Shown in pieces: positions 4,152 through 63,784 of a DNA stretch of 64,000 nucleotides; the stretch's first letter is position 1; each line of letters opens with the position of its first letter. Position numbers and translations under genes: made by a program. This stretch comes from Timema cristinae (lineage: Eukaryota > Arthropoda > Insecta > Phasmatodea > Timematidae), in the NCBI GenBank assembly GCA_039000515.1, contig JBCFYV010000100.1, positions 24,005,769 to 24,069,768 of the forward strand, read 5' to 3'. The notes below the pieces were generated by a model. It had not been told where the DNA came from. It saw only the letters and a program-made list of their open reading frames with translations, and made no database searches.

Positions 4152-4224
4152 TGCCCCGGGTGAGGATTGAACTCACGACCTTAGGATTATGTGACTTACG
4201 CGCTGCCAACTGCGCTACCGAGGC
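4152..4224 (-). tRNA. tRNA-Met(CAT)-like sequence, probably pseudogene
   Basis: The minus strand folds as a 72-base tRNA plus discriminator A. The acceptor stem is GCCTCGG with CCGGGGC (one G-U pair), the D stem GCGC/GCGC and the T arm GTGAG-TTCAATC-CTCAC. The order of segments resembles elongator tRNA-Met. The anticodon loop reads CACATAA, so the anticodon would be CAT, but the nearly universal U33 is replaced by A and the anticodon stem has an A-C mismatch. Diverged relatives lie at 90-165, 2905-2985 and 6060-6127. I take it as a tRNA-derived pseudogene or SINE head rather than a working tRNA. Confidence 0.6.
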
Positions 4225-35865: not shown

Positions 35866-36109
35866 GTGAAATAGACTACCTGACCTTTTAAATGCAATCT
35901 ATGGTCAATTGTGTTAAGTTTATTATGAATTAATGATAATAAAACTACTTAAACTAAAAAAGTACTCCATCATTGTCCAGGAACTTAATTTTTCTCAAAC
36001 AAAAAAACAATGCCAAAATATGTGTTAAAACATGTTGACTTAAATAAAACATAACAAAAGTAACAAATCAATTTATTATATTTTCACTATTTATTATTTT
36101 GGCTTTAAG

Positions 36110-36745
36110 AGATAGATGCATCAAGGAGAAAGGTATGGTTTATCAATATGGCTATAAGAGATAGTTGTAGCAGGTAGATAAGTATGGTTTATCATTACGG
36201 CTATAAGAGATAGTTGTAGCAGGTAGATAAGTATGGTTTATCATTACGGCTATAAGAGATAGTTGTAGCGGTAGATAAGTATGGTTTATCATTACGGCTA
36301 TAAGAGATAGTTGTAGCAGGGAGATAAGTATGGTTTATCATTACGGCTATAAGAGATAGTTGTAGCAGGGAGATAAGTATGGTTTATCATTACGGCTATA
36401 AGAGATAGTTGTAGCAGGGAGATAAGTATGGTTTATCATTACGGCTATAAGAAATAGTTGTAGCAGGGAGATAAGTATGGTTTATCATTACGGCTATAAG
36501 AGATAGTTGTAGCAGGGAGATAAGTATGGTTTATCATTACGGCTATAAGAGATAGTTGTAGCAGGGAGATAAGTATGGTTTATCATTAAGGCTATAAATG
36601 ATAGTTGTAGCAGGGAGATAAGTATGGTTTATCATTACGGCTATAAGAGATAGTTGTAGCAGGAGATAAGTATGGTTTATCATTACGGCTATAAGAGATA
36701 GTTGTAGCAGGGAGATAAGTATGGTTTATCATTACGGCTATTAAT
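36110..36745. repeat. 49-bp minisatellite (about 13 copies)
   Basis: The unit contains GCTATAAGAGATAGTTGTAG and GATAAGTATGGTTTATCATT. Copies are highly similar with few single-base changes, so expansion is recent. I found no exon or splice site at either end, unlike the gene-associated arrays. Confidence 0.95.
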
Positions 36746-41639: not shown

Positions 41640-44090
41640 TATGCACTACTTCAGATAACCAAAAGTGCTATGAAAGACCACTATATCTCTAGCAATATTA
41701 TGAATTAGGTCTTTATAATACCGGCAATGCTATGATTGATACCTCTATATAGAATGTTCGGAAACTCATAGCCTAAACTGCAAACTTGTTTGAACTAAAA
41801 GTAATACAAAATCCCAGCACACCAATATCCGGAAACCTATGCTAATACCTCTGCAAGGCTGTTCAAGCATGTGTGTACAACTAGTTGCATAGGAGCTAGG
41901 CGTGTGGCACTGCACACGTAATAATGGCAAGAACTTTCTTTGATGTAGGACCGTTAATGATGACCCTCAAATTGTATTCGCATTTCTAGATGTGTTCTAG
42001 ATATGTTCTGCTGCCGTGCTCCAAGATGTCAAGGAGAGCAGTGCCGTGCGTCTAGCTCCTATGCAAACTGTTGTACACACATGATTGCACAGCTTTGCTA
42101 TCACGGCGCTGTGCGCCGATACTTTAGACACAATTTAAAGTTATCAGCATAGTTTCCCGCGTGTAAATGTATAGAGATTTTGTATAACTTTAGCCTCAAC
42201 AAACTCTCTGTGCAATTTGGGCTATAAGTTTCCGAACATCCGGTATAAACAGCAATGTTATGACTGATGCTTCTATACAAATATCAGTGCTATGACCAAG
42301 GTCTCTATACAACCAACAATGTTATGACTGATGCCTCTATATAAATATCAGTGCTATGACCAAGGTCTCTATACAACCAACAATGTTATGACTGATGTCT
42401 CTATACAAATATCAGTGCTATGACCAAGGTCTCTATACAACCAACAATGTTATGACTGATGCCTCTATACAAATATCAGTGCTATGACCAAGGTCTCTAT
42501 ACAACCAACAATGTTATGACTGATGCCTCTATATAAATATCAGTGCTATAACCAAGGTTCTATACAACCAACAATGTTATGACTGATGTCTCTATATAAA
42601 TATCAGTGCTATGACCAAGGTCTCTATACAACCAACAATGTTATGACTGATGTCTCTATATAAATATCAGTGCTATGACCAAGGTCTCTATACAACCAAC
42701 AATGTTATGACTGATGCCTCTATATAAATATCAGTGCTATAACCAAGGTCTCTATACAACCAACAATGTTATGACTGATGTCTCTATATAAATATCAGTG
42801 CTATGACCAAGGTCTCTATACAACCAACAATGTTATGACTGATGTCTCTATATAAATATCAGTGCTATGACCAAGGTCTCTATACAACCAACAATGTTAT
42901 GACTGATGCCTCTATATAAATATCAGTGCTATGGCCAAGGTCTCTATACAACCAGCACTGCTATGACTGATGTCTCTATATAACCAGCATTGCTATGACT
43001 GATGTTTCAATATAACCAACAATGCTATGACTGATATATCTATATAACCAGAAATGCTATGACCGATGTCTCTATATAGCCAGCAATGCTATGAATGATG
43101 TATCTATATAACCAGCAATGCTATGACTGATGTCTCCATATAACCAGCAATACTATGATTGATGTCTCTATATAACCTGCATTGCTATGACCAATGTGTA
43201 TATAACCAGCAATGCTATGACCAATGTGTTTATATAACCAGCAATACTATGACGGATGTCTCTATATAACCTGCACTGCTATGACTGATGTCTCTATATA
43301 ACCAGCATTGCTATGACCAATGTCTCTATATAACCAGCAATGCTATGACCAATGTGTGTATATAACCAGCAATGCTATGACTGATGTCTCTATATAACCA
43401 ACACTGCTAAGACCGATGCATCTATATAACCAACAATGCTATGACCGATGTATCTATATAACCAACAATGCTATGACCAATGTCTCTATATAACCAGCAA
43501 TGCTATGACCAATGTCTCTATATAACCAGCAATGCTATGACCGATGTCTCTATATAGCCAGCAATGCTATGACCGATGTCTTTATATAACCAGCAATGCT
43601 ATGACTGATGTATCTATATAACCAGAAATGCTATGACTGATGTCTCTATATAACCAGCAATGCTATGACCAATGTCTCTATATAACCAGCAATGCTATGA
43701 CCAATGTCTCTATATAACCAGCAATGCTATGACCGATGTCTCTATACAACCAGCAATGCTATGACCGATGTCTTTATATAACAGCAATGCTATGACTGAT
43801 GTATCTATATAACCAGAAATGCTATGACTGATGTCTCTATATAACCAGAAATACTATGACCGATGTCTCTATATAACCAACAATGCTATTACCGATGTCT
43901 CTATATAACCAGCACTGCTATGACTGATTTATCTATATAACCAGCAATGCTATGATCAATGTCTCTATATAACCAGCAATGCTATGACCAATGTCTCTAT
44001 ATAACCAGCAATGCTATGACCGATGTCTCTATATAACCAGCAATGCTATGACCGATGTCTTTATATAACCAGCAATGCTATGATTATGGC
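41640..44090. repeat. Satellite array of 32-bp units, partly a 64-bp higher-order repeat
   Basis: The basic unit is about 32 bp, containing CAGCAATGCTATGACCGATG and TCTCTATATAA. From about 42240 to 42950 two diverged units alternate regularly: CCAACAATGTTATGACTGATG and ATATCAGTGCTATGACCAAG. They form a homogeneous 64-bp dimer repeated about 11 times. The remainder to 44090 is monomeric and more variable. The left part (41640-41754) is degenerate and is split from the rest by a MITE at 41755-42238. Confidence 0.95.
41755..42238. mobile_element. MITE of about 485 bp inserted in the satellite
   Basis: The left end ATGTTCGGAAACTCATAGCC and right end GGCTATAAGTTTCCGAACAT are inverted repeats. Internal inverted blocks include TGTGTGTACAACTAGTTGC and GTTGTACACACATGATTGC. 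Satellite sequence lies on both sides, so insertion came after the array formed. Confidence 0.8.
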
Positions 44091-47202: not shown

Positions 47203-47401
47203 GATGAGGGATGAGGATGACCCTGACCCTTACTACACGTCCCTGTGCAGTGCCAAGACCCTTCAGTCCAACCAGAAAGGGTTCTTCCAGGACTACGCCG
47301 ACCAGGTGACGGAGGCCGTGGGTTCGAAATGGATCGAGCGCATGTTTGGAAAACTCTCCACCGACAACGACAGGATAGCAGCCTGCTACGCTGATGACAA
47401 G
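47203..47401 (+). CDS. SMYD4: SMYD4 exon 1 (first coding exon found)
   Basis: ATG at 47204 follows a plausible acceptor (GCTTAGGCCCAG|G) and opens [11 protein letters not shown], ending A-A-C-Y-A-D-D-K at donor GACAAG|GTACAC in phase 0 (66 codons). It includes the segment [10 protein letters not shown], a weakly hydrophobic helix typical of the N-terminus. I choose this start because upstream sequence is MITE DNA and an upstream frame open to 47081 has no further match. An upstream exon joined at 47203 cannot be excluded. Confidence 0.75.
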
Positions 47402-50400
47402 GTACACACCAATCTTTATAGGAACGGCCTTCCTTATCTGACAGCTAGAACAGTTGTTTTTTTTATCTAATCCCGCCTCTTACTACCCCTTAAGATTATA
47501 CGCCTATGTACTGATTACATTAATGTGATAGGACTTACCTCGGTGGCGTAGTTGGCTAACGCGCTTGTCGTGTTGAGCTCGACCGCCGAGGACGGGGAGA
47601 TCGAGGTTAGAATCTCGGTCGGGTGAACTGGGGGCGGTTTTTCCTAAATGGTTTTCCACTCTCCCTCCACGCAAATGCGGGTTCACTTCCTCTAATTCAA
47701 CCTTCCCAATTCCTAATCCATTAGCGTAATTAGTACTTAAAGCGTATAACCCGAACGGGTAGTAAGACGTGGTGGTTAATATTATTATTAGTACTTAAAG
47801 CGTATAAACCGAACGATAGTAAGACGTGGTGCTAAATAATAATAAAAAAAATTGTTGGGTATTAAGAAGGTTGAATTTAGATAACATGTACCCACATTTG
47901 CGTGAAGGAAGAGTGAAAAACTATTTAGGTAAAACTACTATCAGTAGGCCTACACCCGACCAAGATTCGAACCTCGATCTCCCGTCATCGGCAGTCTAGT
48001 CTACTGTGAGAGTAGCTCCTTAGACCATGCAATCACCGAAGCGGGTACGGATGTAGTGAGGTTTTTTTGTTGTTTTTTCTAAATGGCTTACTCTCCGTAT
48101 TTTAAAATATGGAAACATTTCCCCTAAATTCAACACTCGTCATCTCTCTCTCTCATAGGAGTAAATATGAGGAAATCCCTTGCGGGTAGTAACGTGCGAA
48201 GGGCGTTATAGCTAATAGTCGACTGATTTGGTAATAAAATACACGAGTGGAGTGGAGTAACGTGGAGTAACTCAGACCAGGAGTTTTATTATGTCTAGAG
48301 TCGCTCGTAAACTGAATAACGACTGTTGGACTTGCCAGAACGGAGCGTTAATGTGGGCTCACACGCACTCGTTGATAAACCCGAGCAGAGCAGAAGCATA
48401 ACCACGTGACGAGCTATAAGCCAATCACAAGATTTCATCCACGTTGTCCGCTCGGTGCGTTCTGAAATAACTTCGTCTTGTATTTTGTTTATATTTAAGA
48501 AAGTAACGCGATACAATTAAGTATATGATATAAAGGCAAAACTCGAGGGATGACTCATTGTATTTTACCTGCGTAAATCAGCCGTAGCTGAGTCATATTA
48601 GAAAATGAAAAATAATACCTGGATACGGGAATCAAACCTGGCACCTTTGGCTTATCACTGAACTATCCGGGGCTCGTCCCGCGCTCTGGGCCATTCTTCT
48701 TCTCTGCTTGACAACATCAGTTTGGAAGAGTAAAACACAGTTCAACACCAACCGAGTCAATCGGTACGCATGCGCATAGTATAAACCAACCGAGTCAATA
48801 TGCGTATGGACCTACAAAGCGAGATACCAGCAGACATCTGCATCTACTGTTGTGATATAATTTGAAATAATTGTTTAAATGAAAAGCGTATGTGCGGTTA
48901 TTGTTCTGTATTGATTTGTTTCACTCACAACGTCATAATTAGAAAATGTTCATCGTGATAATATTTTAAAGATCTGCTCACTTACCAGAGCAGCGTTTTT
49001 AAATCGGTGTGCCGCGGGGTGAAAAAACAGCGAGACAAAATTGAATAAATATTTTAAATCCATGTTCAACGTAATTTTAAAAATTAACTCAATGATTAGC
49101 ATGTCTGGGCCAAATCACTCGTAGCCCAGTAGGGGAAAGATTAGCCAGTACTAGTGAACTATTGTCCAGGGGACGCCCGGATGTACTAATCGTGCATCCT
49201 TTCCGTGGGGACTCTTCCCATGTCACGATGAGATGAAATAGTGGGTGATAGTGAGTATGAAGGTGTGAAACCAGTAGAAATTCTTAAACCTAACCCAAGC
49301 CTAACCAAACAAATACTGATGACCTTTGAGATAATTCCCCTTTAGGGAAAGTTACTCTAAAGTACCTGTCATAAATCAAACCCGGGAACCTTAGGCTCTT
49401 AGACAGGTGTGATGACCACTACACAACGGGGCCGGTTCCTTCACAAGGTTACCTCAACGATAATTGTTGAATATCTGTCAATGGTGTCCTAGAATTTAAT
49501 GACAACTTTTTATCTTCATTTAAAACGTTTCTTATCAAATGCCACTATGCACTGCCAGATATTCAACAAAAAAAGTAATGTTGATATCACCCTTAAAAAA
49601 AAAATTAAACTTTATGTTTATACTGGTGTAATATTTTATTTATTTTGGACAACAAAATGTTATGCTATTAAAGCTGTAAATCACTGCCTTTAAGCAGATT
49701 CTACTCTAAGTTTACGGCGAGCTTGTGAATCAAGCTTTACTCGGTGCACGTAATGAGGATTTCTATAGCGTGTGAACAATCAAACAAGCCAAACATTTGC
49801 TCAGATTTACGGAAACATCTCAACCCACCTCATTGAGGCTTGTAAGATGGTGAGTTCTAATCTGGTTTCATAATTGAATACACCTGCATTATTGGACTGT
49901 AGGCCATTTACATTATTTTAATTTCTAACAACCTACATCGGTGCATACACAGACTAAAATGTCAAACTCGTTTAGTTTGGTTTGCTGTCGACGGAGAGGT
50001 TGGGGCACTGAGTCGGATGTACTGCTCCACAATGTCTTTCTGCTTTCCATCCACGCAAATATGGGTACATTTTCTATTAATTATACCTTACTTATTAGTG
50101 CAATTAAATGTGGATAGTTCTGACGGGTTTATGACATACTATAAACATGATGAATAGCAATTATATATTCCCAGAATTTCTTGAAATGTGATGTAAATAA
50201 AATAAAAAATAAAAGTTTTGTTTACGTTAACAAATTGAACTGTCGTGTCGATAAAAATTATCATAATATAAAATATGATGAGGCTACACATAAGAATGGC
50301 TTTAACTTTTTAATACAACCATTTTATTTTTATAGTTAGGAGTAGATGCTACCTAACTTAACTAGTTTATTAAGTCTCCTAGACCAAGGTCATCCAAAAT

Positions 50401-53400
50401 TTCTCATCCAAAACGCCAAATATGACTATCAATTGGCACCGTGGGCCAAAGATATATTTAGTCATCTCATCAACTTAATATAGCCCATAAACGACACTTA
50501 ATGAACAATTACCTTCTATACTTATACGTTCGTCACAAATATAAATTCAGTATGGAAATTATCATGTTTAAAAAAATTAAATAACTGCATCTAATGAAGC
50601 TTTTATTTTAGGAAACAAAATAAATAAATGAATAATAACAATCGCTAAAATACTGGCACTAGCTCCCATTTCCTTCCGCCCTAATTTAACTGTTCATCAC
50701 TTGCTGACCCAGGTGCGGATGGCCGTGCTGGAACCCTTAAAACACACACAGGAAATGTACCGACGGAAATCGGCTCCAGTGGCTTTCCAGAAGAGGATGG
50801 AGGCTGACCGTGCTTTGTCCTCCAATAACCCTCAGAAAGCCCTCATGTTGTACAGTCAGAGCTGCATGCGAGCTCCTGGTACAGGTGAGTCTGGCAACAC
50901 TTCCAAGATCTGTACCGTGATCAGTTGTCCTCCAACAATCCTCCTGGTACAGGTGAGTCTGGCAACACTTCCAAGATCTGTACCGTGATCAGTTGTCCTC
51001 CAACAATCCTCCTGGTACAGGGGAGGCTGGCAACACTTCCAAGATCTGTACCGTGATCAGTTGCCCTCCAACAATTCTCCTGGTACAGGGGAGTCTGGCA
51101 ACACTTCCAAGATCTGTACCGTGATCAGTTGTCCTCCAATAACCCTCCTGGTACAGGTGAGTCTGGCAACACTTCCAAGATCTGTACCGTGATCAGTTGT
51201 CCTCCAACAATCCTCCTGGCACAGGTGAGTCTGGCAACACTTCCAAGATCTGTACCGTGATCAGTTGTCCTACAATAACCATCCTGGTACAGGTGAGTCT
51301 GGCAACACTTCCAAGATCTGTACCGTGATCAGTTGTCCTCCAATAACCATCCTGGTACAGGTGAGTCTGGCAACACTTCAAGATCTGTACCGTGATCAGT
51401 TGTCCTCCAACAACCTCTGGTACAGGTGAGTCTGGCAACACTTCCAAGATCTGTACCGTGATCAGTTGTCCTCCAACAACCCTCCTGGTACAGGTGAGTC
51501 TGGCAACACTTCCAAGATCTGTACCGTGATCAGTTGTCCTCCAACAATCCTCCTGGTACAGGGGAGTCTGGCAACACTTCCAAGATCTGTACCGTGATCA
51601 GTTGTCCTCCAACAATCCTCCTGGTACAGGTGAGTCTGGCAACATTTCCAAGATCTGTACCGTGATCAGTTGTCCTCCAACAATCTCCTGGCACAGGTGA
51701 GTCTGGCAACACTTCCAAGATCTGTACCGTGATCAGTTGTCCTCCAATAACCATCCTGGTACAGGTGAGTCTGGCAACACTTCCAAGATCTGTACCGTGA
51801 TCAGTTGCCCTCCAACAATCCTCCTGGTACAGGTGAGTCTGGCAACACTTCCAAGATCTGTACCGTGATCAGTTGTCCTCCAACAATCCTCCTGGCAAAG
51901 GTGAGTCTGGCAACACTTCCAAGATCTGTACCGTGATCAGTTGCCCTCCAACAATCCTCCTGGTACAGGTGAGTCTGGCAACACTTCCAAGATCTGTACC
52001 GTGATCAGTTGTCCTCCAACAATCCTCCTGGTACAGGGGAGTCTGGCAACACTTCCAAGATCTGTACCGTGATCAGTTGTCCTCCAACAATCCTCCTGGT
52101 ACAGGGGAGTCTGGCAACACTTCCAAGATCTGTACCGTGATCAGTTGCCCTCCAACAATTCTCCTGTTGAAGTTAGTATTGTATTCTTCAGGAACTGTAC
52201 CTGTAGTTCTGAGACAGCACCAATTAGTCGACAACCTTATCCCTATGGGATCGCGTTAAAGGTGAATACTACAGATTTGTTTGTCTTCCATTGATGTACT
52301 TGATTAGTTCCTTTTCAGTGTCTCAGTACACCACGAGTTCTTATCGAGTAATGTTTATGCGCAGGCGTGGATAAGACCGTGGACCAGGGTTTGAGTCTCG
52401 CCCTGGCACTAGGCGGTCGCTCTGAAGCTCTTTTAGTCCTGGAGGACTACTTGCAGAGTTTGGCGGATACAAATTTGGCAGTCAAGGAGGGCTTTCCTCA
52501 ACATCTCAGGTATAACCAATACATTCGTAGGAGTTAAGGAGTGCTTCACTCAACATCTCAGGTGCAAAAGGGGGCAAAACTTTTATTTGGGTGACTGAGT
52601 CAATTTTAGAACTCTATCTTATTAGTATGTTTCCTTTCAATTCTATCTCCCTACCACACATATTGACGCATCATGTAACATCTTTTGCATGATGAAACTA
52701 TGATTCATTGACCTTGCAGGTATCAGCTCTACTGGCGCATGATGAAACTATGATTCATTGACCTTGCAGGTATCAGCTCTACTGGCGCATGATGAAACTA
52801 TGATTCATTGACCTTGCAGGTATCAGCTCTACTGGCGCATGATGAAACTATGATTCATTGACCTTGCAGGTATCAGCTCTACTGGCGCATGATGAAACTA
52901 TGATTCATTGACCTTGCAGGTATCAGCTCTACTGGCGCATGATGAAACTATGATTCATTGACTTGCAGGTATCAGCTCTACTGGCGCATGATGAAACTAT
53001 GATACATTGACCTTGCAGGTATCAGCTCTACTGGCACATGATGAAACTATGATTCATTGACCTTGCAGGTATCAGCTCTACTGGCGCATGATGAAACTAT
53101 GATTCATTGAACTTGCAGGTATCAGCTCTACTGGCGCATGATGAAACTATGATTCATTGACCTTGCAGGTATCAGCTCTACTGGCGCATGATGAAACTAT
53201 GATTCATTGACCTTGCAGGTATCAGCTCTACTGGCGCATGATGAAACTATGATTCATTGACCTTGCAGGTATCAGCTCTATTGGCGCACGATGAAACTAT
53301 GATTCATTGACCTTGCAGGTATCAGCTCTACTGGCACACGATTAAACTATGATTCATTGACCTTGCAGGTATCAGCTCTACTGGCGCATGATGAAACTAT

Positions 53401-56400
53401 GATTCATTGACCTTGCAGGTATCAGCTCTACTGGCGCATGATGAAACTATGATTCATTGACCTTGCAGGTATCAGCTCTACTGGCGCATGATGAAACTAT
53501 GATTCATTGACCTTGCAGGTATCAGCTCTACTGGCGCATGATGAAACTATGATTCATTGACCTTGCAGGTATCAGCTCTACTGGCGCATGATGAAACTAT
53601 GATTCATTGACCTTGCAGGTATCAGCTCTACTGGCACATGATGAAACTATGATTCATTGACCTTGCAGGTATCAGCTCTACTGGCGCATGATGAAACTAT
53701 GATTCATTGACCTTGCAGGTATCAGCTCTACTGGCGCATGATGAAACTATGATTCATTGACCTTGCAGGTATCAGCTCTACTGGCGCATGATGAAACTAT
53801 GATTCATTGATCTTGCAGGTATCAGCTCTACTGGCGCATGATGAAACTATGATTCATTGACCTTGCAGGTATCAGCTCTACTGGCGCATGATGAAACTAT
53901 GATTCATTGACCTTGCAGGTATCAGCTCTACTGGCGCATGATGAAACTATGATTCATTGACCTTGCAGGTATCAGCTCTACTGGCGCATGATGAAACTAT
54001 GATTCATTGACCTTGCAGGTATCAGCTCTACTGGCGCATGATGAAACTATGATTCATTGACCTTGCAGGTATCAGCTCTACTGGCGCATGATGAAACTAT
54101 GATTCATTGACCTTGCAGGTATCAGCTCTACTGGCGCATGGGTCGCTGCTACCGGGGGTTGAACCAAGTGGCCAAGGCTCGGGTGTCGCTGCAGCTATCC
54201 GCACGGCTAGTACGCGAGCACCTTGCTCAACTAGGCAACGAGGCCGTCATCTCCCTGATGCGGCTACAAGAGGAACTGGCTGACCTGGTGCTTTTAGAGG
54301 AGGAGGGTAGCTCAAAGGAACTGCTCCAGATAAAACAGCCAGGTTTGGTTTGGAAAAGTTTAGCTAATATGTCTTAGAAAATGTCAAAATACTTGGTAAA
54401 ACCAAAGGTTCACACTTCATTTGTGGTTGTTTTTGGCCTATGAATACATTTTTAAAATAAAATTTCTTCTTCGGGTTATACATTTGGGATGTATTACAAA
54501 TTGTATCTATTCTGATGATAGACAATGTTATTACAAAACCATAAACATGCGTCATACAGCTTGCAGACCAATGGACAATTGCGCAGGGAAAACTTCTTTT
54601 GTGTTTTTTTTAAATTTCTCAAGATGAATCTGTGCCAAATTTTGCAAATACGTAGATAGATGTCTTCTTTTTCAGAAAAAATGAACCTTTGGCTTCGATT
54701 CCTGTGTCCAGGTGTAATTTTTCAATTCAACGAATATGATATTATTTGTGGCTTTAACCGTAATTATCAAATATAATATCTTGGATATTAGGTAACCCAT
54801 CATGATGTGCGCATTCGTACTGTTGTTAATGTACATTTGCAGAATAAAGCTCTACCGAGTCGAGAGTGGCTGCTTTAGCTGATAGCTCGTGATCTTAATG
54901 GATCACACATATGTGTCCTATACATTATTTCTCACTCTCATTCCATGAAAATTTGGGAACAGTTCCTTTAAATTCTACCTTTCTCAACCGTAATCCCTTA
55001 GTGTAATTAAATATGGATTGGATTGTAAGACGCTAGAGAAAATTAAAAAAAAGTATTGATTTGTTTTGTAAATGTACTGTACACTCCGTTTATCCTGAAA
55101 GGGAACAATAGTACTTTTTTTTTAGCAACGCATCTTACTACCCGTTCGGGTTATACGTTTATGTACTAATTACGATAAATGGTTTTAGGGATGAGGAAGG
55201 TTATATTTAGAGGAAGTGTAATCACGTGTGCATGCATGAAGGGAGAGTGGAAAACCATTTAGGGAAAACCACCCTCAGTACAACTGACCTGAATTCGAAC
55301 CTCTATCTTATCTTTACTGGCCAACAATATTATACGAGACTGACGCCTTTACCCACGTGAGCACCGGTGCGGGTGATTCCTAATTTGATTAGTAAGAACC
55401 GGGGAATCGAACCGAAATATTTAATGGTTTTGTTTCTTGTTCTGGTTCTCAAAAACAATTTAATGTTCCGGTTCTGGTTGTAGAAAAATAAATGTACCTG
55501 TTCTTTTCAGTTCTTAATTAAATTCTGGTTCTGTTTTCGGTTATTTCAATTTTGTATTTATTTGTAATAATAGACATTATAAAATTCGTAAGAAACATAC
55601 ATTTAAAAAAGTTATTTATAAATAAAAAGAAGCAAATAAAATGCAACAATAAGAAATAATTATAAAAATTTAAAACTATTTTGAACCTTAAAAATATCAA
55701 TTCCAATTCCGGTTACTAAGAAATTTATTATTAGATTTATTATTACAGTTCTGGTATCTTTAAAAATAACTGTTAATTTTTCGTCATCATTTCTGGTTTC
55801 GGTTCAAATCCCTGGTAAGAGCTATTTAAAACGCCTTAAGATGAAGGGGTTAGATAAATCTCTTGACAAGTGTGTACTACAAATTGCATATTTAGGATGA
55901 TTAAGGATACACGTGGTCACATTGTTTAGATGATGTAAATTATTCGTCTGATCATTAATAACGTACTCTATGGTGTCAGTCTCACAATTGACTGGATTGT
56001 TGGTGACGGAGGATTCCCAGTTGGAATCCCAGTAGGGTTACTAAGGTGGGATATAGAGGACGCGAGAAAAGGAAAAGGTTTTTTTTTTCCAGTTTTTATA
56101 GCAAAATTGTTGTTGACAGAAATAAATCAAATATTGCTTCAGAAACATATAGAGTTTAATTTTATTGACATGGTGTTATCAACAGTTGTCGAATATCTTC
56201 GTGAGAATAGAAGAATTAGATGTCAAAACTTTTAAAACGTTGCCAATAAATTCCAGGACACCCTTTTTAGATATTCAAGAAATGTTGATGTCACCATGTG
56301 AAGAAAATTACACTCTATGTTTTATCTAGAGCATATTTTATTTATTTACCCCCAACAAAAAAGTTTTGCTACACAAACTGCAAAAACACTGGCCTTTTCT

Positions 56401-56566
56401 TGCGTTCACTACACTCCCTCCGTAGGGTAGTTATATTTCTAAATGATTTCCCACCTTCCATCCATTTAATCGCGTGTGCACTTTATGTAAATGCTACCCT
56501 TTACATCTCTACCCCCAAAGTGTAATTAAATGTGGATAGCCCGGGCGGGTGGTAAGACGTGGCATA

Positions 56567-56597
<31 letters not shown>

Positions 56598-59500
56598 TAT
56601 TGCTACTATTTTACAGCTCCATGGACTATGGAAGAGGAGAATATTTTATAGACAATGTGTTTCCGCATTAGAGGGGAGAATATGGTAGAGCCACAGTGTT
56701 AATTACTTGTGAGAAATAACTCCTCAGACAGTGTAACCGATAAGTTAATTCTAGTCGCGCTTCGAGCCGACAGATCCGATGAGACTGAAAGAAATCTTGT
56801 GGTTGATTTAGAGTTAGTTACATGATTACGTCTCTGATCTGCTCTGGTTTTTCGTCGAGCGTGTGAACCCCACAGTGAACCCTAAGAGGAGGTGTAATAC
56901 CCACAGACGAGACTCCACTGCCGCCGGTGGTTGCGGGCTGTCACCCGGAGTTGGGGTGCGCGTCACGTCTTCTTGGGGTGTCACGGACGGAGCAAGCGGG
57001 GAGGTACGTCGTGGCGCGGGAACCAGTGGCTACTGGCGACACTCTGGTGGTGGAACCTGCTTACGCCGCCTGCCTCCTGCCGGATAAATTCGGCTCTCAT
57101 TGCCATCACTGCTTCGCCAGGTAGCTTACCCTCTACATTTACAATAGCAAGCTAGGTTCATATTACTTACTACCACTGCTTCGCCAGGTAGCTTACCCTC
57201 TACATTTACAATAGCAAGCTAGGTTCATATTACTTACTACCACTGCTTCGCCAGGTAGCTTACCCTCTAAATTTACAATAGCAAGCTAGGTTCATATTAC
57301 TTACTACCACTGCTTCGCCAGGTAGCTTACCCTCTACATTTACAATAGCAGCTAGGGTATATTACTTATTCCACATGCTTCGCCAGGTAGCTTACCCTCT
57401 ACATTTACAATAGCAAGCTAGGTTCATATTACTTACTACCACTGCTTCGCCAGGTAGCTTACCCTCTACATTTACAATAGCAAGCTAGGTTCATATTACT
57501 TACTACCACTGCTTCGTGCTACTTACCCTCCACACTTACAATAACAAGCTATGTTAATATCACAGCCTACCAATGCCTCACCACATTTATAATAAGCAAG
57601 GCTTATATAATTAACAGTGCTTAGCCAGGTCACTCGCTTCTTTATACTATGACAATTCAGATCATATTAATAGAACTGCTTTCACTGTAGTAATAGTGAT
57701 AGTAGGCCTACACTTTCTCTTTCTACATGAATATTAGTTCATTTCTTATAAGTTATTACACACCTAGGGTGACCTGGTGGTCTAGGGGTAAGGTGTCAGA
57801 CCTCTGTGCTGGGGGTCCGGGGCTCAATCCTCGGTCCCGGTACAGATTTATCTGATTGTAGAACCCTTCCTTCACATATGACAAGATGTGTATTAATCAC
57901 AACTTGTGAATGTGGGAATACCAGGCCTCCACCGTGGTTCGATCCCACGTTAAACTGTAGGTCCTTCATTTCATCTCACAATCACTCTACCATTACACAT
58001 TAGCGTAAGTGCGTATAACCTGAACGGGTAGTAAGACGTGGTGCTAATAATAATTAGTGACACTACTAGAGCGAACCTTTGACTAAGTCCCCCCTCGTGT
58101 CCAGACTGAATGCTCCAGTGGCGTGCCCGGAATGCAGTGGCCTAGCGTTCTGTTCCGTGCGTTGCCGCGACGAGGCGTGTCGATCGTACCACCGGTACGA
58201 GTGTCACTACATGGACCTGCTGATTGGATCGGGCATGAGTATCCTGTGTCACGTGGCCCTCAGGATGGTCACTCAGGCCGGGGAACAGTTCTTCTTGGAC
58301 CGCCGACAGGATCTGACGTCACACAGCAAAGGTGAGGGGGAGGTTGCATTCATAAGGATGTTCATAGAGACCCACACCACAATGGTTCGTATTTACCACC
58401 GCGTCAATAATATACCCCATATATGATAAGAATATAAGTAAGCGAAAGATATCAGACGGTCCTTTATTTATAACATGAAAAAAACTATGTCAATCTATTC
58501 GGAAATAATTAATAATTTGATTAGTAATACTATATTTTCAATAAAAAGTGTTATCAAACACTTCTAATAATATTTCCCTAAGTATCCCTCTATATTGACT
58601 TTTTATAGATAATTTAAAAACAATAAACCTAAATAAAACTATTAAGTTATTTGTTTCATTGTTGTGGCAGCAAGAGATATCGTGCATGAAACAGTACATT
58701 AAAAATTATTTTTATGTTCACACTTGTATCTTCTTTAATAGGCACCAAAATAAATAAACGCTTTTCTATAAACTTAGAGAAAGACCCATACATTTATATT
58801 GATTACAAAAGGAAACTTTTTAATTTTGTGAGCACATGCGCATAAACACAACTGAATACGGTTCGTATCATGTCATCAACCACCTTCATTATGCATGGTT
58901 TACCCTATTGTTGACCCTTGTTCTAAGACATAATGTGTGATGTTACCTAGATATCAGAAACCGACAGGACACTCTCTATTGTTGACCCATGTTCTAATAC
59001 ATAATGTGTGATGTTACCTAGATATCAGAAACCGACAGGACACTCTCTTTTTGTTGACCCTTGTTCTCAAACATAATGTGTGATGTTGCCTAGATATCAG
59101 AAACAAACAAGACACTCCCTAGTGTTGACCCTTGTTCTAAGACATAATGTGTGATGTTACCTAGATATCAGAAACAGACAGGACCTCTCTATTGTTGACC
59201 CTTGTTCTCAAACATAATGTGTGATGTTGCCTAGATATCAGGAACCGACAGGACACTCTCTATTGTTGACCCTTGTTCTCAAACATAATGTGTGATGTTG
59301 CCTAGATATCAGAAACAAACAGGGCACTCTCTATTGATGACCCTTGTTCTCAAACATAATGTGCCATGTTGCCTAGATATCAGAAACCGACAGGACTCTC
59401 CCTATTGTTGACCCTTGTTCTCAAACATAATGTGTGATGTTGCCTAGATATCAGAAACAAACAGGACACTCCCTATTGTTGACCCTTGTTCTCAAACATA

Positions 59501-61986
59501 ATGTGTGATGTTGCCTAGATATCAGAAACAAACAGGGCACTCTCTATTGTTGACCCTTGTTCTCAAACATAATGTGCCAAATTTAAATAAACGCTTTCTA
59601 TGACACTTTAAAAATGGAGCCCTAGATTAATAGAACAAAAGGAAACTTTTTGACTTTTCTAAGACAATTGGATGTTATAAGATATTCGTATCATGACAAC
59701 ACCTCTATTGTGTACCCGTTGTTTTCTAAACATAATGTGCTATGTTGCCTAGATATCAGAACACAGGCCACTCTATTGTTGACCCTTGTTCTCAAACAAT
59801 GTGTGATGTTGCCTAGATATCAGAACGACAGGACACTCTCTATTGTTGACCTTGTTCTAAGACATAATGTGTGATGTGGCCTAGATATCAGAAACCGAAC
59901 AGGACACTCCCTATTGTTGACCCTTGTTCTCAAACATAATGTGTGATGTTGCCTAGATATCAGAAACAAACAGGCACTCCCTATTGTTGACCCTTGTTCT
60001 CAAACATAATGTGCCATGTTGCCTAGATATCAGAAACGACAGGACTCTCCCTATTGTTGACCCTTGTTCTCAAACATAATGTGTGATGTTGCCTAGATAT
60101 CAGAAACAAACAGGACACTCCCTATTGTTGACCCTTGTTCTCAAACATAATGTGCATGTTGCCTAGATATCAGAAACCGACAGGACTCTCCTATTGTTGA
60201 CCCTTGTTCTCAAACATAATGTGTGATGTTGCCTAGATATCAGAAACAGACAGGACACTCCCTATTGTTGACCCTTGTTCTAAACATAATGTGTGATGTA
60301 CCTAGATATCAGAAACAGACAGGACACTCTCTATTGTTGACCTTGTTTTCAAACATAATGTGCCATGTTGCCTAGATATCAAACAAGGGCACTCTATTGT
60401 TGACCTTGTTCTCAAATAAGTATGTGCCTGATTAACACATCCAGGAAAACATCCCCTATTGTTGACCTTGTTCTAAACATAATGTGTGATGTTGCCTAGA
60501 TTCAGAAACCACAGGACACTCCCTATTGTTGACCCTTGTTCTAAACATAATGTGTGATGTTGCCTAGAGAATCCTGCCCCATCAGGACAAATTATCTCGC
60601 GGTCCACAACCTGGTCACACATGCCAACAAGAGGAAACCCAAAGAGTTCTTCCAGCGGACACTCATGGCGGTGTTTCTTTTGAAATGTCTCCAGAAGGCT
60701 GGCTACTTCTCCGCACCATCAATAGATCAAAGTGAGTAGACATCATAATATCAGCAACAACAACAACGCCTTCCATCAGTTGTGACCAAGTGGTCTAAGA
60801 TGACAGACTCGCATTATACTAGGTCAAAATTGATAACGATCTAGTGGCTCGAATTCCATTGTAGTGCACTGGGAGTTGGTTTTTCGTGTGCAATCTTCCA
60901 TGGTATTTATACTCTTCTCTCAAATTAAATAATAGTGCATGGATTCAAATCTATCCATTTTATCCACATTACCCTTGAATTAAATGTTTATAGCCTTGGT
61001 CTTAAGTAGTCGTAAACATATATTTTTAAACATAGACTTAGATTTATTTTTCTTTGGGGTGTGTCTCTATTATTATTATTTTTAATTCAGGTATATCTAA
61101 GTGGATTTCATAAACCTATTAATTCTATCATCACACAGTTTACAAACTAAATCTAGAACAGACATTAAACACTAGTCCCATAACCATCAATCCATCACGG
61201 TGAATGATAAAACTCTAATTTCGAATGTATTTAAAATCTGACCGTATTAATAATTGAGCCCGAGATCATTTGCAAAGCAGAGCATAGCATAGCAAAGCAA
61301 AGCAAAGAAGAGTGAAAAGATCAGAGACCAAAGCACCAACTAAAGGTTACTTAACTAAGGGTACGGCCAGACTGAGCGCGCGAGCGAGCGAGCGAGCGCG
61401 CGAGCGACTAAAATATAAAATAGAACACATTGGTTGTAATGGGGGTGGCCACACTGGAGCGAGCGAGCGAGCGAGCGCGCGAGCGACTGAGCGCGCGCGC
61501 TTGAAAGATAGAACTGGTTCTATTTTTCAAGCGCGCGCGCTCGACCCGGTACAGTCTAGTTTACAGGCGCTAGGCAATATTATTGTATGTTGGTTCATTG
61601 AGTGCTGGGGAAATTTCTCATTTTGACATGATATTTGACTTTTTTCTATCAGTGATAGGTTTAACACACTTTCTATTAATGGCCCGGTGACCTGGCGGTC
61701 TAGGGGTAAGGTGTCAGACTTCTGTGCTGGTGGTCTAAGGGTAAGGTGTCAGACTTCTGTGCTGGAGGTCTGGGGCTCAATCCTCGGTCCCGGCACAGAT
61801 TTATCTGATTACCAAACCCTTCCTTCACCTCTGGCAAGACATCTTGTGAATGTGGGGAAAGCCAGGCCTCCACCGTGGTTCGGATTCCACGTTAAACTGT
61901 AGGTCCTTCATTTCATCTCACAATCACCCTACCATTACACATTAGCGTAAGTGCATATAACCCGAACGGGAAGTAAGATGCGGTGC

Positions 61987-62018
<32 letters not shown>

Positions 62019-63784
62019 GCCTAATTTAATTGGTAAGACCATAAATAATATAATGTATATATGTAAACCCGATATGTTAAAATACTTCAATATTATAATA
62101 AAAGTAGGCCTTGACAAATAAGAATCACCATTAGTTTGGAGAGAGTATGAAAAAACCACTACAATAAATAAGTTTTAAAAATCACCTTCAGTTCACTGAG
62201 CCAAGATTCGAACCTTTGCCTCCTAGTCAAAAGTTATCGAGTGCAACGCACCATTCTGCCACTGGTGCGGCAAATCTGATTTTAAAACACTTCAGTACAG
62301 TACCATACGCATTTCTCAATTTATTAATTGGATGCACTTCTACTTTTTTCTTTTTTATAAATACACAATATTTTCTGTAAGAATTTTCGAGGATCAGAGA
62401 TGTACTAAGTGTGTTTGACAGAGACATCTTCTCTAACTAGGGGGGAGGGGGGGGGGCGGTGACCTAGTGGTCTAGGGGTAAGGTGTCAGACTTCTGTGCT
62501 GGCAGCCGGGGTTCAATCCTCGGTCCCGGCACAGATTTATCTTATTTCCAAACCCTTCCTTCACCTCTGACAAGACATCTTGTGAATGTAGGGAATGCCA
62601 GGCCACCACCGTGGTTCGGATTCCACGTTAAACTGTAGGTCCTTCATTTCATCTCACAATAACCCTACCATTACACATTAGCGTAAGTGCGTATAACCCG
62701 AACGGGTAGTAAGACGCGGTGCTAATAATAATCTAACTAGGGTCCGCTAATTACGCGCTCGCTCGCTCGCTCGCGCGCTCGCCAGTTTGGCCACCCAGTC
62801 GCTTGCGCGCTCGCTCGCACGCTTGGCAGTCTGGCCGAACCCTAACCCGAACGGGTAGTAAGACGCGGTGCTAATAATAATCTAACTAGGGTCCGCTAAT
62901 TACGCGCTCGCTCGCTCGCGCGCTCGCGCGCTCGCCAGTTTGGCCACCCAGTCGCTTGCGCGCTCGCTCGCTCGCTCGCGCGCTTGGCAGTCTGGCCGAA
63001 CCCTAAGGTGTCAAGCTGAGTAGTTAGAAAATTCATAATTGATAAACTGGCTTTGCCCCATTTAACTAAAGGGTCTTGTGTTAATTTAAAAACTAGACAA
63101 TGATCTGCTGCTAAAGTTTAAAGGCATTAAATGCATTACTAATAATAAAAGATTACTTTTACTTAGCACCTCGCCTTACTACCCATTCGGGTTATACACT
63201 TAAGTACTGGCTACACTAATAGGTTAGGAATTGGGTTGAAAAATTATATCTGGACACGTGAATTGAACCCAGGACCCAACGTAGTTAAACTATACCTTTT
63301 AATAGGTATATATAATGTTAAAAATATCTTAAATAGTTAATAGTTCTCATATCAGGAGATGTTCAGGGAATGGCAATTAAGTTTGATAACCATATAGTGT
63401 ACCTGAGTTCAATCTTTAGCGTTATTGATCTTAACTGTCTGTATAGGGAGATAAATTATATAGTCTTTTCAGACGAATGCTGGCGAGTTCCTATAAATTA
63501 TACTATTCTTGCTCTATTCATCCTTCTTGTCCTGTTCTCTAAGTTTAAAGTGTCTGTTGCTAGTCATGTCATGTTTTACCAGCATGTCTGAGTGAGGAAG
63601 AGCTCCTGATTGGCTCTCTGCTGCTGCGACATCTCCAGCTGTTGCAGTTCAACGCCCACGAAGTGTACGAGACTAGAATAGAGGCTCCTCGTCAATTACG
63701 CACCTCTAAGACAGAGTACATTGGTGTCGCCATCTACCCAACTGTGGCCCTGTTCAACCACGACTGTTACCCAGCTGTTACCAG
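47204..63784 (+). CDS. SMYD4: SMYD4-like SET and MYND domain protein, whole gene (8 exons seen, 3' end outside)
   Basis: Coding exons 47204-47401, 50713-50884, 52365-52509, 54119-54342, 56907-57120, 58105-58331, 60570-60731 and 63583-63784 join in phase (0, 1, 2, 1, 2, 1, 1, 2) to about 514 codons. Order: an N-terminal region, TPR-like helices (about 90-205), the S-sequence start of SET with G-R-Y-V-V-A at 278-283, a full MYND finger (312-351), a helical insert with N-L-V-T-H and the A-V-F-L-L-K-C-L-Q motif, and SET with F-N-H-D-C-Y-P at 505-511. SMYD proteins are lysine methyltransferases using S-adenosylmethionine; SMYD4 members carry TPRs before the split SET. The catalytic G-E-E-I/Y-x-Y part and post-SET cysteines lie beyond the edge. 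No frame breaks were seen in any exon. Introns are large and repeat-filled. Confidence 0.93.
47468..48050 (-). mobile_element. SINE family B (minus) split by a later SINE insertion
   Basis: Its tail complement (47468-47527, CCGCCTCTTACTACCCC) and its body plus head complement (about 47858-48050, from AAGGTTGAATTTAGATAAC to ATGCAATCACCGAAGCGGG) are separated by a plus-strand SINE at 47528-47857. The older element lies in the first SMYD4 intron. Confidence 0.8.
47528..47857 (+). mobile_element. SINE family B, nested insertion with duplicated tail
   Basis: The head CCTCGGTGGCGTAGTTGGC, the B-box AGGTTAGAATCTCGG and a full body agree closely with 9118-9377. The tail (ATTAGTACTTAAAGCGTATA, then the ACCCGAACGGG block) occurs twice in a row, followed by TAATAATAAAAAAA. 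It lies inside an older SINE. Confidence 0.85.
48340..48475 (+). repeat. Dispersed repeat, also found inverted at 56755-56890
   Basis: Shared blocks in order are GTGGGCTCACACGC, a GAGCAGAGCAGA segment, CACAAGATTT and TCCGCTCGG..GCG. The partner copy is inverted and lies at the end of SMYD4 intron 4. The class is unknown. The flanks (48060-48340 and 48475-49100) show no gene; a tRNA-like B-box complement (GGGAATCAAACCTGG) is at about 48628. Confidence 0.5.
49365..49437 (-). repeat. tRNA-like unit
   Basis: The minus strand has GGTTCCCGGGTTTGATTTATG (T-arm-like) and an A-box-like TTGTGTAGTGGTCATCACACC. It is probably a SINE head without a tail. Confidence 0.45.
49440..49690 (+). mobile_element. 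MITE family A, internal fragment
   Basis: It contains TTCACAAGGTTACCTCAAC, AATTTAATGACAACTTTTTA and TTGATATCACCCTTAAAAAA in family order. Both termini are missing. Confidence 0.65.
49970..50130 (+). mobile_element. SINE family B fragment
   Basis: It has TTTGGTTTGCTGTCGACGG, CTTTCCATCCACGCAAATA and TTAGTGCAATTAAATGTGG, aligning with the body of other copies. The tail is decayed. The region 50130-50712 is AT-rich intron. Confidence 0.5.
50713..50884 (+). CDS. SMYD4: SMYD4 exon 2 (start of TPR region)
   Basis: Acceptor TTGCTGACCCAG and donor GGTACAG|GTGAGT bound 172 bases (phase 0 in, 1 out). It encodes [10 protein letters not shown] at the start, Y-R-R-K-S-A, then [12 protein letters not shown] and [13 protein letters not shown], the first TPR-like helix pair (A-D-x-A-L, then K-A-L-x-L-Y-S). 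The last 30 or so exon bases, with the donor, are the seed of the 68-bp array that fills the next intron. Confidence 0.9.
50857..52170 (+). repeat. 68-bp minisatellite made of a 5' splice junction (about 18 copies)
   Basis: The unit holds TTGTCCTCCAACAATC, CTCCTGGTACAG|GTGAGTCTGG and CAACACTTCCAAGATCTG. TTGTCCTCCAATAACCCTC and GAGCTCCTGGTACAG|GTGAGT are parts of exon 2, so each unit is a shortened exon end plus the first intron bases. Most units keep an exact CAG|GTGAGT donor. A few read CAGGGGAGT or AAAGGTGAGT. The genuine donor is the first one (50885). The array ends at about 52170 in unique intron sequence. Confidence 0.95.
52365..52509 (+). CDS. SMYD4: SMYD4 exon 3 (TPR region)
   Basis: Acceptor TTTATGCGCAG and donor CATCTCAG|GTATAA bound 145 bases (phase 1 in, 2 out). 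It encodes [15 protein letters not shown], then [14 protein letters not shown] and K-E-G-F-P-Q-H-L-R. The S-L-A-x-A..R-S-x-A-L..D and F-P-x-H-L-R motifs are hallmarks of the SMYD4 TPR block. A short copy of the exon end (TCACTCAACATCTCAGGT) recurs about 40 bases into the intron, an early-looking junction duplication. Confidence 0.92.
52510..52566 (+). repeat. Two-copy duplication of the exon 3 donor junction
   Basis: CTCAACATCTCAG|GTATAACC at the true donor is echoed at 52545-52563 as CTCAACATCTCAGGTGCAAA, with AAGGAGGGC/AAGGAGTGC just before. It looks like a single junction-spanning tandem duplication, the smallest example of the pattern seen in the large arrays. Confidence 0.7.
52687..54140 (+). 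repeat. 50-bp minisatellite made of a 3' splice junction (about 29 copies)
   Basis: The unit is exactly 50 bp: GATGAAACTATGATTCATTG, then ACCTTGCAG|GTATCAGC and TCTACTGGCGCAT. The last copy is the real acceptor of exon 4, which continues into unique coding sequence after CGCATG. Each unit thus carries a possible branch region, the acceptor and the first 22 coding bases. Copies are almost identical (single changes such as CACATG, GATACATT, TTGATCTTG). Use of any earlier acceptor would meet an in-frame TGA after 11 codons. Confidence 0.97.
54119..54342 (+). CDS. SMYD4: SMYD4 exon 4 (TPR region)
   Basis: Acceptor CATTGACCTTGCAG and donor CAGCCAG|GTTTGG bound 224 bases (phase 2 in, 1 out). It encodes [11 protein letters not shown], then [13 protein letters not shown], followed by a long charged helix ([15 protein letters not shown]). 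The Y-x-L-Y-x-R-x-G-R-C motif ends the SMYD4 TPR block. The first 22 coding bases are the sequence multiplied in the array upstream. Confidence 0.92.
54880..55035 (+). mobile_element. SINE-like fragment
   Basis: It has TTTCTCACTCTCATTCCATG, AAATTCTACCTTTCTC and CCCTTAGTGTAATTAAATA in the order of family B bodies, and a residual tail (GGATTGTAAGACGCTAG). Confidence 0.5.
55125..55378 (-). mobile_element. SINE family B copy
   Basis: The tail complement TAGCAACGCATCTTACTACC is at the left. The body has GAGAGTGGAAAACCATTTAG. The head complement, with TTCGAACCTCTATCTTATC and GAGCACCGGTGCGGG, is at the right. It lies in SMYD4 intron 4. Confidence 0.8.
56042..56410 (+). mobile_element. MITE family A copy
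   Basis: It starts AAGGTGGGATATAGAGGACG and ends near TTCTTGCGTTCACTACACTC, with TATTGACATGGTGTTATC and CACCATGTGAAGAAAATTAC facing each other. The TTAA flanks are decayed (CTAA at the left). Confidence 0.7.
56440..56597 (+). mobile_element. SINE tail with (TAA)n
   Basis: A body fragment with CCCACCTTCCATCCATTTAA and the tail AGCCCGGGCGGGTGGTAAGAC, then about ten TAA repeats. Confidence 0.6.
56755..56890 (-). repeat. Dispersed repeat ending at SMYD4 intron 4 acceptor
   Basis: It is inverted relative to 48340-48475 (complement of GTTCACACGC, GAGCAGATCAGAG and CACAAGATTTCTTTCAG). Its right end lies about 17 bases before the exon 5 acceptor, so the intron end and perhaps the branch site derive from a repeat. 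Confidence 0.5.
56907..57120 (+). CDS. SMYD4: SMYD4 exon 5 (SET start and first MYND cysteines)
   Basis: Acceptor GTGTAATACCCACAG and donor TTCGCCAG|GTAGCT bound 214 bases (phase 1 in, 2 out). It encodes D-E-T-P-L-P-P, then [18 protein letters not shown] and H-C-H-H-C-F. G-R-Y-V-V-A followed by G-D-x-L-V-x-E-x-P/A is the S-sequence that opens the split SET domain and contacts S-adenosylmethionine in SMYD proteins. C312 and C315 are the first zinc ligands of MYND. The acceptor has a poor pyrimidine tract. It was chosen because its phase fits and a TGA closes the frame at 56876. Confidence 0.88.
57105..57640 (+). repeat. 67-bp minisatellite made of a 5' splice junction (6 good plus 1-2 decayed copies)
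   Basis: The unit contains CCACTGCTTCGCCAG|GTAGC (exon 5 end and donor), TTACCCTCTACATTTACAAT and AGCAAGCTAGGTTCATATTA. The true donor is in the first copy at 57120/57121. Copies next to the exon are nearly identical, while those beyond about 57505 are strongly diverged, so recent growth was at the exon side. Confidence 0.95.
57768..58055 (+). mobile_element. SINE family A copy
   Basis: The head GGTGACCTGGTGGTCTAGG, B-box GGCTCAATCCTCGG, body and tail (TAACCTGAACGGGTAGTAAG) are intact. A short extra segment (GTATTAATCAC) interrupts the body. It ends about 50 bases before exon 6. Confidence 0.88.
58105..58331 (+). CDS. SMYD4: SMYD4 exon 6 (MYND zinc finger)
   Basis: Acceptor CCCCCCTCGTGTCCAG and donor GCAAAG|GTGAGG bound 227 bases (phase 2 in, 1 out). 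It encodes [11 protein letters not shown], then [12 protein letters not shown] and S-Y-H-R-Y-E-C. With exon 5 the ligands are C312, C315, C325, C328, C334, C338, H347 and C351, a complete C6HC MYND pattern. After it come H-V-A-L-R-M-V and other helices of the SET insert. Confidence 0.95.
58430..58890 (+). mobile_element. Repeat family C
   Basis: It is collinear with 13960-14520 (AAACACTTCTAATAATA, TTGTGGCAGCAAGAGATAT, GCACCAAAATAAATAAACG, AACTTAGAGAAAGACC). The end of the element, around 58885-58915, passes directly into the 71-bp array. A piece of it (58741-58880) reappears inside that array at 59578-59705. Confidence 0.65.
58905..60569 (+). repeat. 71-bp minisatellite ending at a 3' splice site (about 22 copies)
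   Basis: The unit contains CTATTGTTGACCCTTGTTC, CAAACATAATGTGTGATGT and TGCCTAGATATCAGAAAC. The last unit reads TGTGATGTTGCCTAGAG and passes into exon 7, so each unit holds an acceptor-like TGCCTAG. Many copies have one-base losses. At 59578-59705 the array is interrupted by a second copy of the family C flank. Confidence 0.93.
60570..60731 (+). CDS. SMYD4: SMYD4 exon 7
   Basis: Acceptor TGTTGCCTAGAG and donor GATCAAA|GTGAGT bound 162 bases (phase 1 in, 1 out). It encodes [10 protein letters not shown], then [15 protein letters not shown] and Q-K-A-G-Y-F. N-L-V-T-H and A-V-F-L-L-x-C-L match the SET-insert helices of SMYD4 proteins. The choice of AG at 60568-60569 rather than 60566-60567 follows from the phase. 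Confidence 0.9.
61340..61600. mobile_element. GCGA-rich element with 24-bp hairpin
   Basis: It begins near AAGGGTACGGCCAGACTG, followed by (GCGA)n/(GCGC)n, then GGCCACACTGGAGCG with another GCGA run. At its right end two 24-bp arms (AGCGCGCGCGCTTGAAAGAT and its complement side) are separated by only 2 bases with one mismatch. The GGCCAGACTG motif and GCGA runs recur inverted at 62750-63005. It is probably a non-autonomous DNA element of unknown class. Confidence 0.65.
61685..62013 (+). mobile_element. SINE family A with duplicated head, 8-bp target duplication
   Basis: The tRNA-like head segment GGTAAGGTGTCAGACTTCTG occurs twice in tandem, before a single B-box (GGGCTCAATCCTCGG), body and tail. 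The direct repeat TAATGGCC lies at 61677-61684 and 62014-62021. It lies in SMYD4 intron 7. Confidence 0.9.
62140..62275 (-). mobile_element. SINE family B fragment
   Basis: The minus strand has a head ending GCCGCACCAGTGGCAGAATG and an AGGTTCGAATCTTGGC B-box, with a partial body. Confidence 0.6.
62443..62456. repeat. G-rich run before SINE
   Basis: A run of G with single A and C interruptions (GGGGAGGGGGGGGGGCGG) lies between the left target repeat and the SINE head. Confidence 0.8.
62457..62731 (+). mobile_element. SINE family A with 11-bp target duplication
   Basis: It is a full-length copy (GGTGACCTAGTGGTCTAGG head, GGGGTTCAATCCTCGG B-box, ACCCGAACGGGTAGTAAGACG tail). The direct repeat TCTAACTAGGG lies at 62432-62442 and 62732-62742. 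Confidence 0.9.
62695..63005. repeat. 149-bp tandem duplication of SINE tail plus GCGA-rich element
   Basis: The segment from AACCCGAACGGGTAGTAAG through TCTAACTAGGGTCCGC, a (CGCT)n run, CAGTTTGGCCACCCAGTCGC, a second (CGCT)n run and GGCAGTCTGGCCGAACCCTA occurs twice with an offset of 149 bases. The GCGA-rich part is inverted relative to 61340-61600. Confidence 0.9.
63165..63245 (-). mobile_element. SINE tail fragment
   Basis: The tail complement CGCCTTACTACCCATTCGGG is followed by ACTAATAGGTTAGGAATTGG. It is truncated and passes into a tRNA-like segment (GTGAATTGAACCCAGGACCC). Confidence 0.65.
63583..63784 (+). CDS. SMYD4: SMYD4 exon 8 (SET core)
   Basis: Acceptor GTCATGTTTTACCAG bounds the left. 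The right edge is GTTACCAG|GCAAGG, a GC donor, giving 202 bases (phase 1 in, 2 out). It encodes T-C-L-S-E-E-E-L-L, then [14 protein letters not shown] and [13 protein letters not shown], followed by [11 protein letters not shown]-x-C-x-P is the SET motif binding S-adenosylmethionine and lying near the pseudoknot. The L-Q-x-N-A-H/Q motif is typical of SMYD4. The remaining SET and post-SET exons are outside the window. Confidence 0.93.

Follow-up and report, generated by a model that had tools for sequence, protein, structure and literature searches.

The closest described relatives of the repeats reported here come from amphioxus. A 2010 study of its globins describes minisatellite-like duplications of intron-exon boundaries, attributes the name 'mirages' to earlier work on Adh3 and offers mirages as a route to intron gain (PMC3087553). 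A second paper added PGBD5 to the mirage genes and cited TnC (PMC3902484). The mirage genes of these papers comprise Adh3, TnC, the globins BflGb6 and BflGb9, and PGBD5, with units of 10–72 bp in Adh3, 60 and 108 bp in PGBD5 and 150–160 bp in the globins, and the authors state that splicing is undisturbed by mirages (PMC3087553, PMC3902484).

The window analysed here, a stretch of 64,000 nucleotides of Timema cristinae DNA, contains a SMYD4 gene in which tandem arrays share traits of the amphioxus mirages: a 5' or 3' intron-exon boundary is spanned, many units carry AG/GT, and the units are homogenised. The host differs, being an insect, and so does the density, with three spanning arrays and one old duplication in one gene. 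Copy numbers reach 29 in Timema, compared with 6 and 3 in the two BflGb6 haplotypes. The statement of the sequence-only reading that no described system is known to do this across one gene is wrong, since the amphioxus mirages are of the same kind (PMC3087553, PMC3902484). The SMYD4 arrays are a genuine and unusual insect case of a phenomenon known from the lancelet and poorly understood. Among the open-licence literature matches listed, we found no insect mirage and no gene with this many. The accessible parts of two papers, one on repeats in Daphnia and one on a phasmid genome, yielded nothing on splice borders.

Ordinary intronic minisatellites, or VNTRs, resemble the Timema arrays in unit size, homogeneity and copy number, whereas the three spanning arrays (A, B and C) hold coding bases and a real splice site. 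Rogers is said to have described in 1989 how introns are gained by tandem genomic duplication of AGGT, and Zhuo et al. reportedly traced human introns to tandem arrays in 2007. AG|GT tandem repeats at an intron end are common to AGGT intron gain and to the Timema arrays, but the Timema introns have only one end in the repeat.

Arrays across the splice borders of SMYD4

The SMYD4 coding region lies on the forward strand at 47204–63784; its eight exons are connected by seven joins in frame, and the exons were also compared one by one by tblastn. Exons 1–4 are at 47204–47401, 50713–50884, 52365–52509 and 54119–54342, and exons 5–8 at 56907–57120, 58105–58331, 60570–60731 and 63583–63784. The top protein matches were P0001 (Timema douglasi), P0002 (T. 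monikensis) and P0003 (T. cristinae), each with a best-alignment identity of 94–97% to the window's SMYD4. Shorter matches were P0009 (T. bartmani; 84%) and P0011 (T. genevievae, labelled uncharacterised). For exons 4–8, P0003 was top or equal top of the five Timema records in tblastn. Pfam placed a MYND finger slightly below its cut-off (21.6 vs 22.7 bits) and matched Med31 weakly (E 0.065). In the PDB, 14 sequences of SMYD2/SMYD1 matched SMYD4 across its MYND region. When exons 1–4 (exon 4 in part) served as a query for short Timema fragments, two JGI proteins were obtained at a query coverage of 17–19%. SMYD4 extends beyond exon 8, with an apparent GC donor at 63784 (CAG|GCAAGG), where P0002 reads through (RQGLQRK) and P0003 continues as RYFVGH.

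Arrays were detected with TRF over the window, which lists all five arrays A to E, and their units were cut out and compared with the exons. Array A (50873–52166, forward strand; 68-bp unit, 19 full copies) begins 12 bp upstream of the exon 2 donor, so that the donor at 50884|50885 falls inside its first unit and 12 bases of each unit are exonic. Array B (52687–54140, forward strand; 50-bp unit, 29 full copies) includes the exon 4 acceptor (54118|54119) in its last full unit, with 22 exonic bases per unit. Array C (57107–57560, forward strand; 67-bp unit, 7 copies) includes the exon 5 donor (57120|57121) in its first unit, with 14 exonic bases per unit. In all three arrays, exon and intron bases across a splice border are thus combined in one tandem unit. 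The sequence-only reading had seen minisatellites anchored on exon borders in four of seven introns, each with the exon-side repeat as the real splice site and exonic bases within the unit. Four of the seven introns do carry border-spanning or border-abutting repeats, and A, B and C bear out both statements, but the fourth array, D, merely abuts its exon and no exonic bases were found in it. Alignment of the units to their flanking exons, the check proposed with that reading, divided the arrays in the same manner: A, B and C share exon bases, while D and E contain no exon sequence scoring above the 99.5% null limit.

At the same null limit of 99.5%, each of the three spanning arrays matched only its own exon among the nine exons tested on both strands. 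In none of A, B, C and D did the unit resemble the far border of its own intron more than random segments did (23%, 41%, 92% and 10% of 1500 random segments, respectively, scored at least as high as that border). The match of A, B and C to their own exon only, together with the missing likeness to the far border, argues that each array grew from one border. Ordinary intron sequence follows beyond arrays A and C.

In A, B and C the exon-adjoining unit has exactly the consensus sequence of its array, and the real site therefore gains no advantage over the copies from its local sequence. As the copies of an array have common descent, the counts of intact dinucleotides are not independent observations: in array A, AG is intact in 19/19 units and GT in 14/19, including the first, real copy; in array B both are intact in 29/29; and in array C both are intact in six of seven. 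GT has become GG in five of the 19 units of A, the real one excluded, and only one of the 68 positions varies more than this one. In array B, 20 of the 29 units match the consensus exactly. Mean variants per position amount to 0.026 in A, 0.008 in B, 0.055 in C and 0.119 in D, the most diverged array. Units of A, B, C and E contain CAG|GT, and those of D contain AG|AT. None of the unit lengths (68, 50, 67, 71 and 37 bp) is a multiple of three, so splicing at a neighbouring copy would shift the reading frame.

Array B amounts to a natural test of splice-site choice, as its near-identical 50-bp copies offer 29 acceptors and only the one in the last copy should be right. Because these acceptors are nearly identical, only sequence beyond about 22 bp into exon 4 can mark the right one.

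Part of repeat A has its source in the interior of exon 2. A 34-bp stretch of the repeat aligns with exon 2 at 50804–50833 on the forward strand (27 of 30 aligned bases identical, plus four gap bases) with a score of 31, compared with at most 24 in 1963 random segments from outside the array region. In a second null that included the gene itself, the 99.5% limit was 22 and the top score was also 31. The copies of array A are without exon 2 bases 50834–50872 (39 bp), the exact breakpoint being blurred by a common CTC, and the exon state AATAACC is retained in four of 16 array A copies among those listed. The piece duplicated ancestrally probably reached from about 50804 into the intron, and these 39 bp would later have been lost from the copies. 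Since part of repeat A is exon 2 interior with a 39-bp deletion, the direction of copying was from exon to intron.

Another border in the same gene carries an old two-copy duplication, of the exon 3 end and its donor (52480–52563, forward strand). The copies lie 52 bp apart, the second at 52532–52563, and share 28 of 32 bases, with only two intronic bases inside the duplicated span. Judged by eye, P0011 appears to carry extra exon-3-end-like peptides at this place.

Arrays D and E and the neighbouring gene

Array D (58905–60568, forward strand; about 24 copies of a 71-bp unit, those in the middle diverged) stops one base before exon 7. The in-frame exon 7 acceptor is 60569|60570, one base beyond the array end at 60568, and 0 of 21 BLAST matches cross the array D border. 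At the start of exon 7 itself (60570–60610), a stretch of 14 residues stands opposite KEILPPSDKYLAVH of P0001–P0003. The comparison suggests several one-base length differences that cancel one another, and these are possibly consensus errors.

Array E (23592–24643, forward strand; 37-bp unit, about 29 copies) adjoins the last coding exon of the neighbouring gene, which encodes a small uncharacterised protein (24646–24959, forward strand; start placed from the reading frame). AG is intact in 21 and GT in 28 of its 29 units. The exon matches P0121 of the katydid Anabrus simplex with 48% identity over 100 columns (E 7e-19; E 2e-10 in another search), whereas Pfam gave no match for this exon or for the open reading frame at 20.4 kb. 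An acceptor at 24645|24646, two bases past the end of the array, is favoured by the coding frame. The CAG of the last unit was considered as acceptor and rejected with some reservation; with it the exon frame would meet a stop at 24639–24641, for which reason the later border is preferred, under the same reservation. The sequence-only reading had held that this fifth, 37-bp array behaves like the others. This was not borne out, as array E adjoins an acceptor placed by inference and its unit yielded no exon sequence. D and E were probably either seeded just within the intron or have an exonic part that has decayed.

Within the neighbour exon, at 24690–24800, the likeness to Anabrus P0121 seems by eye to shift frame and return, which suggests one-base errors or a decayed stretch.

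Origin of the arrays and competing explanations

With a probability of roughly three in four, we read the arrays as mirages, that is, border-crossing tandem duplications that are tolerated by splicing and amplified towards the intron. A DNA segment crossing an exon-intron border would duplicate in tandem and thereby found a minisatellite. The spliceosome would stay on the exon-proximal site, so that the duplication is tolerated and the extra copies come to lie inside the intron. The array would then grow, delete and homogenise through slippage or unequal exchange, and this turnover would be confined to the intron side because selection on the protein holds the exon side. The observed basis of this model consists of the combined exon and intron units (A, B, C and the exon 3 copy), the exon origin of part of A, the homogeneity of A to C and the occurrence of unit-A sequence in further Timema records. 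We infer the use of the exon-proximal site as the sole one, the duplication mechanism and the selective boundary, and protein continuity together with the statements of the amphioxus papers suggests that splicing is accurate. Arrays D and E, whose units yielded no exonic bases, speak against the mirage model, as does the divergence of D, the highest of the arrays. So do the array-derived 'exons' in three Timema predictions, which may be prediction noise or real use of internal sites, and the top score of 31 in the second null for unit A.

The mirage model accounts better for tolerance than for the excess at borders, because duplications would be expected mostly within introns, yet 3/7 to 4/8 span a border. 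Base composition and survival are candidates for explaining such frequent border hits. GC-rich exons may attract tandem duplication, with events inside exons purged and border-crossers surviving, an idea that we consider possible though tentative and that is an addition to the mirage explanation rather than an alternative. GC content is 0.56 in the SMYD4 exons and 0.38 in the introns outside the arrays, which is in line with the idea, but the array units are only moderately GC-rich (0.41–0.50) and all of these values come from this one gene.

A rival reading is that the arrays are ordinary minisatellites at chance positions, made conspicuous by the choice of window. All chance tests are post hoc, since the window was chosen because of the pattern. 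When A to D were placed randomly in introns with a one-unit overrun allowed, all four spanned or abutted a border with P 1.15e-4, and a looser rule (array edge at most one unit from a border) gave P 1.6e-3 for all four. Counted as founding duplications, 4/8 cross a border where 0.45 are expected (P 5.4e-4); the eight are A, B, C, D, the exon 3 copy, which originated in a search of borders only, and the TRF rows at 55438, 61692 and 62694. TRF arrays alone give 3/7 against 0.41 expected (P 5.4e-3). When the entire gene was scanned with equal sensitivity, 4/10 founders cross against 0.58 expected (P 1.6e-3), each low-complexity cluster being entered once. Outside the arrays that scan found 17 pairs: the exon 3 copy, a pair at 47729/47787 in intron 1, and 15 low-complexity pairs in clusters at 61.4 and 62.7–63.0 kb. 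At the level of the window, five of eight large arrays begin or stop no more than 22 bp from one of the 16 borders (P 2.3e-7, binomial), with a limit that was picked after the fact and one border that was inferred.

The self-match control is a cruder test and shows no border excess: 5/15 borders had a match and 4/15 a spanning one, compared with 146/600 and 128/600 random positions, which we attribute to repeats occupying much of the window. The claim of the sequence-only reading that random arrays would rarely end on borders this often is thus upheld for SMYD4 to a moderate degree and post hoc (P 1e-4 to 5e-3), without backing from the self-match control. P values of that size are attainable by searching many windows, and three other large arrays lie at no known exon. 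However, chance placement leaves unexplained the exon sequence within the units, the additional duplication across the exon 3 donor, the exon-abutting array in the next gene and the precedent in several amphioxus genes. We consider it unlikely, and border spanning in SMYD4 is modestly above chance, on post hoc grounds.

A process acting across the Timema genome might favour splice-border amplification, with AG|GT units retained because they are self-correcting through recursive splicing. Splicing at a wrong copy would recreate a donor or leave a donor/acceptor pair, and a second step would restore the same mRNA. We think this improbable. The splice dinucleotides of array A are unprotected and those of array B are intact in an array that is near-invariant overall, so that there is no sign of copies being retained as splice sites.

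It is improbable that the arrays are remnants of an intron-creating event, in which AGGT (proto-splice) segments were duplicated in tandem. The CAG|GT in units of A, B, C and E could serve as acceptor and donor. Intron gain by tandem duplication is documented in a review (PMC3443670) and in a paper that proposes it for seven Drosophila introns (PMC2891723), and mirages are put forward as a source of new introns in the amphioxus globin study (PMC3087553). Such an event predicts repeat at both intron ends, but the far borders in A to D show no match, although ancient decay is possible; in addition, ordinary intron lies past A and C, and the D units carry AG|AT.

An assembly artefact, with repeats at exon borders collapsed or expanded, is very improbable. 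Exon 7 and the 24.7-kb exon both seem to contain one-base differences that offset each other, so the consensus may be noisy, and the copy numbers are assembly-based, with outside support absent for B, C and D. But unit-A peptides occur in predictions of three named Timema species, of which two or more are not that of the window, and a 39-bp deletion common to the copies is hard to explain by misassembly.

If the mirage reading holds generally in Timema, mutation would have produced border-spanning arrays recurrently in two animal phyla that are far apart, and such arrays would be more than a peculiarity of lancelets.

Array sequence in Timema gene predictions

'SSNNPP' unit-A peptides occur five times in P0002 and once each in P0003 and P0011; P0001 has none, and P0009 begins only at exon 5. 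P0003 carries a single extra unit and P0002 a run of units. Judged from these peptides, two or more species other than that of the window have unit-A repeats in their records, and the absence from P0001 means only that its predictor skipped the units. The P0003 peptide suggests a 69-bp unit in T. cristinae. P0001, itself a prediction, is continuous over the splice joins, and P0001 and four non-Timema SMYD4 proteins, viewed by eye and unaligned, cross the same joins without repeat-derived peptide. The array-derived 'exons' of P0002, P0003 and P0011 are likely false exons, although real use of internal sites could also produce them. The arrays seem in this way to generate spurious exons in public Timema gene predictions.

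Elsewhere in the window, the large arrays away from any known exon lie at 19019–19413, 36090–36741 (49 bp, 13 copies) and 42244–44083 (32 bp, 58 copies). GAGC/CGCT low-complexity blocks occupy 61374–61497 and 62694–62984, with a 149-bp repeat of 1.9 copies at 62694. The only RNA feature from tRNA and Rfam scans of the window was a tRNA-Met at 4152–4224.
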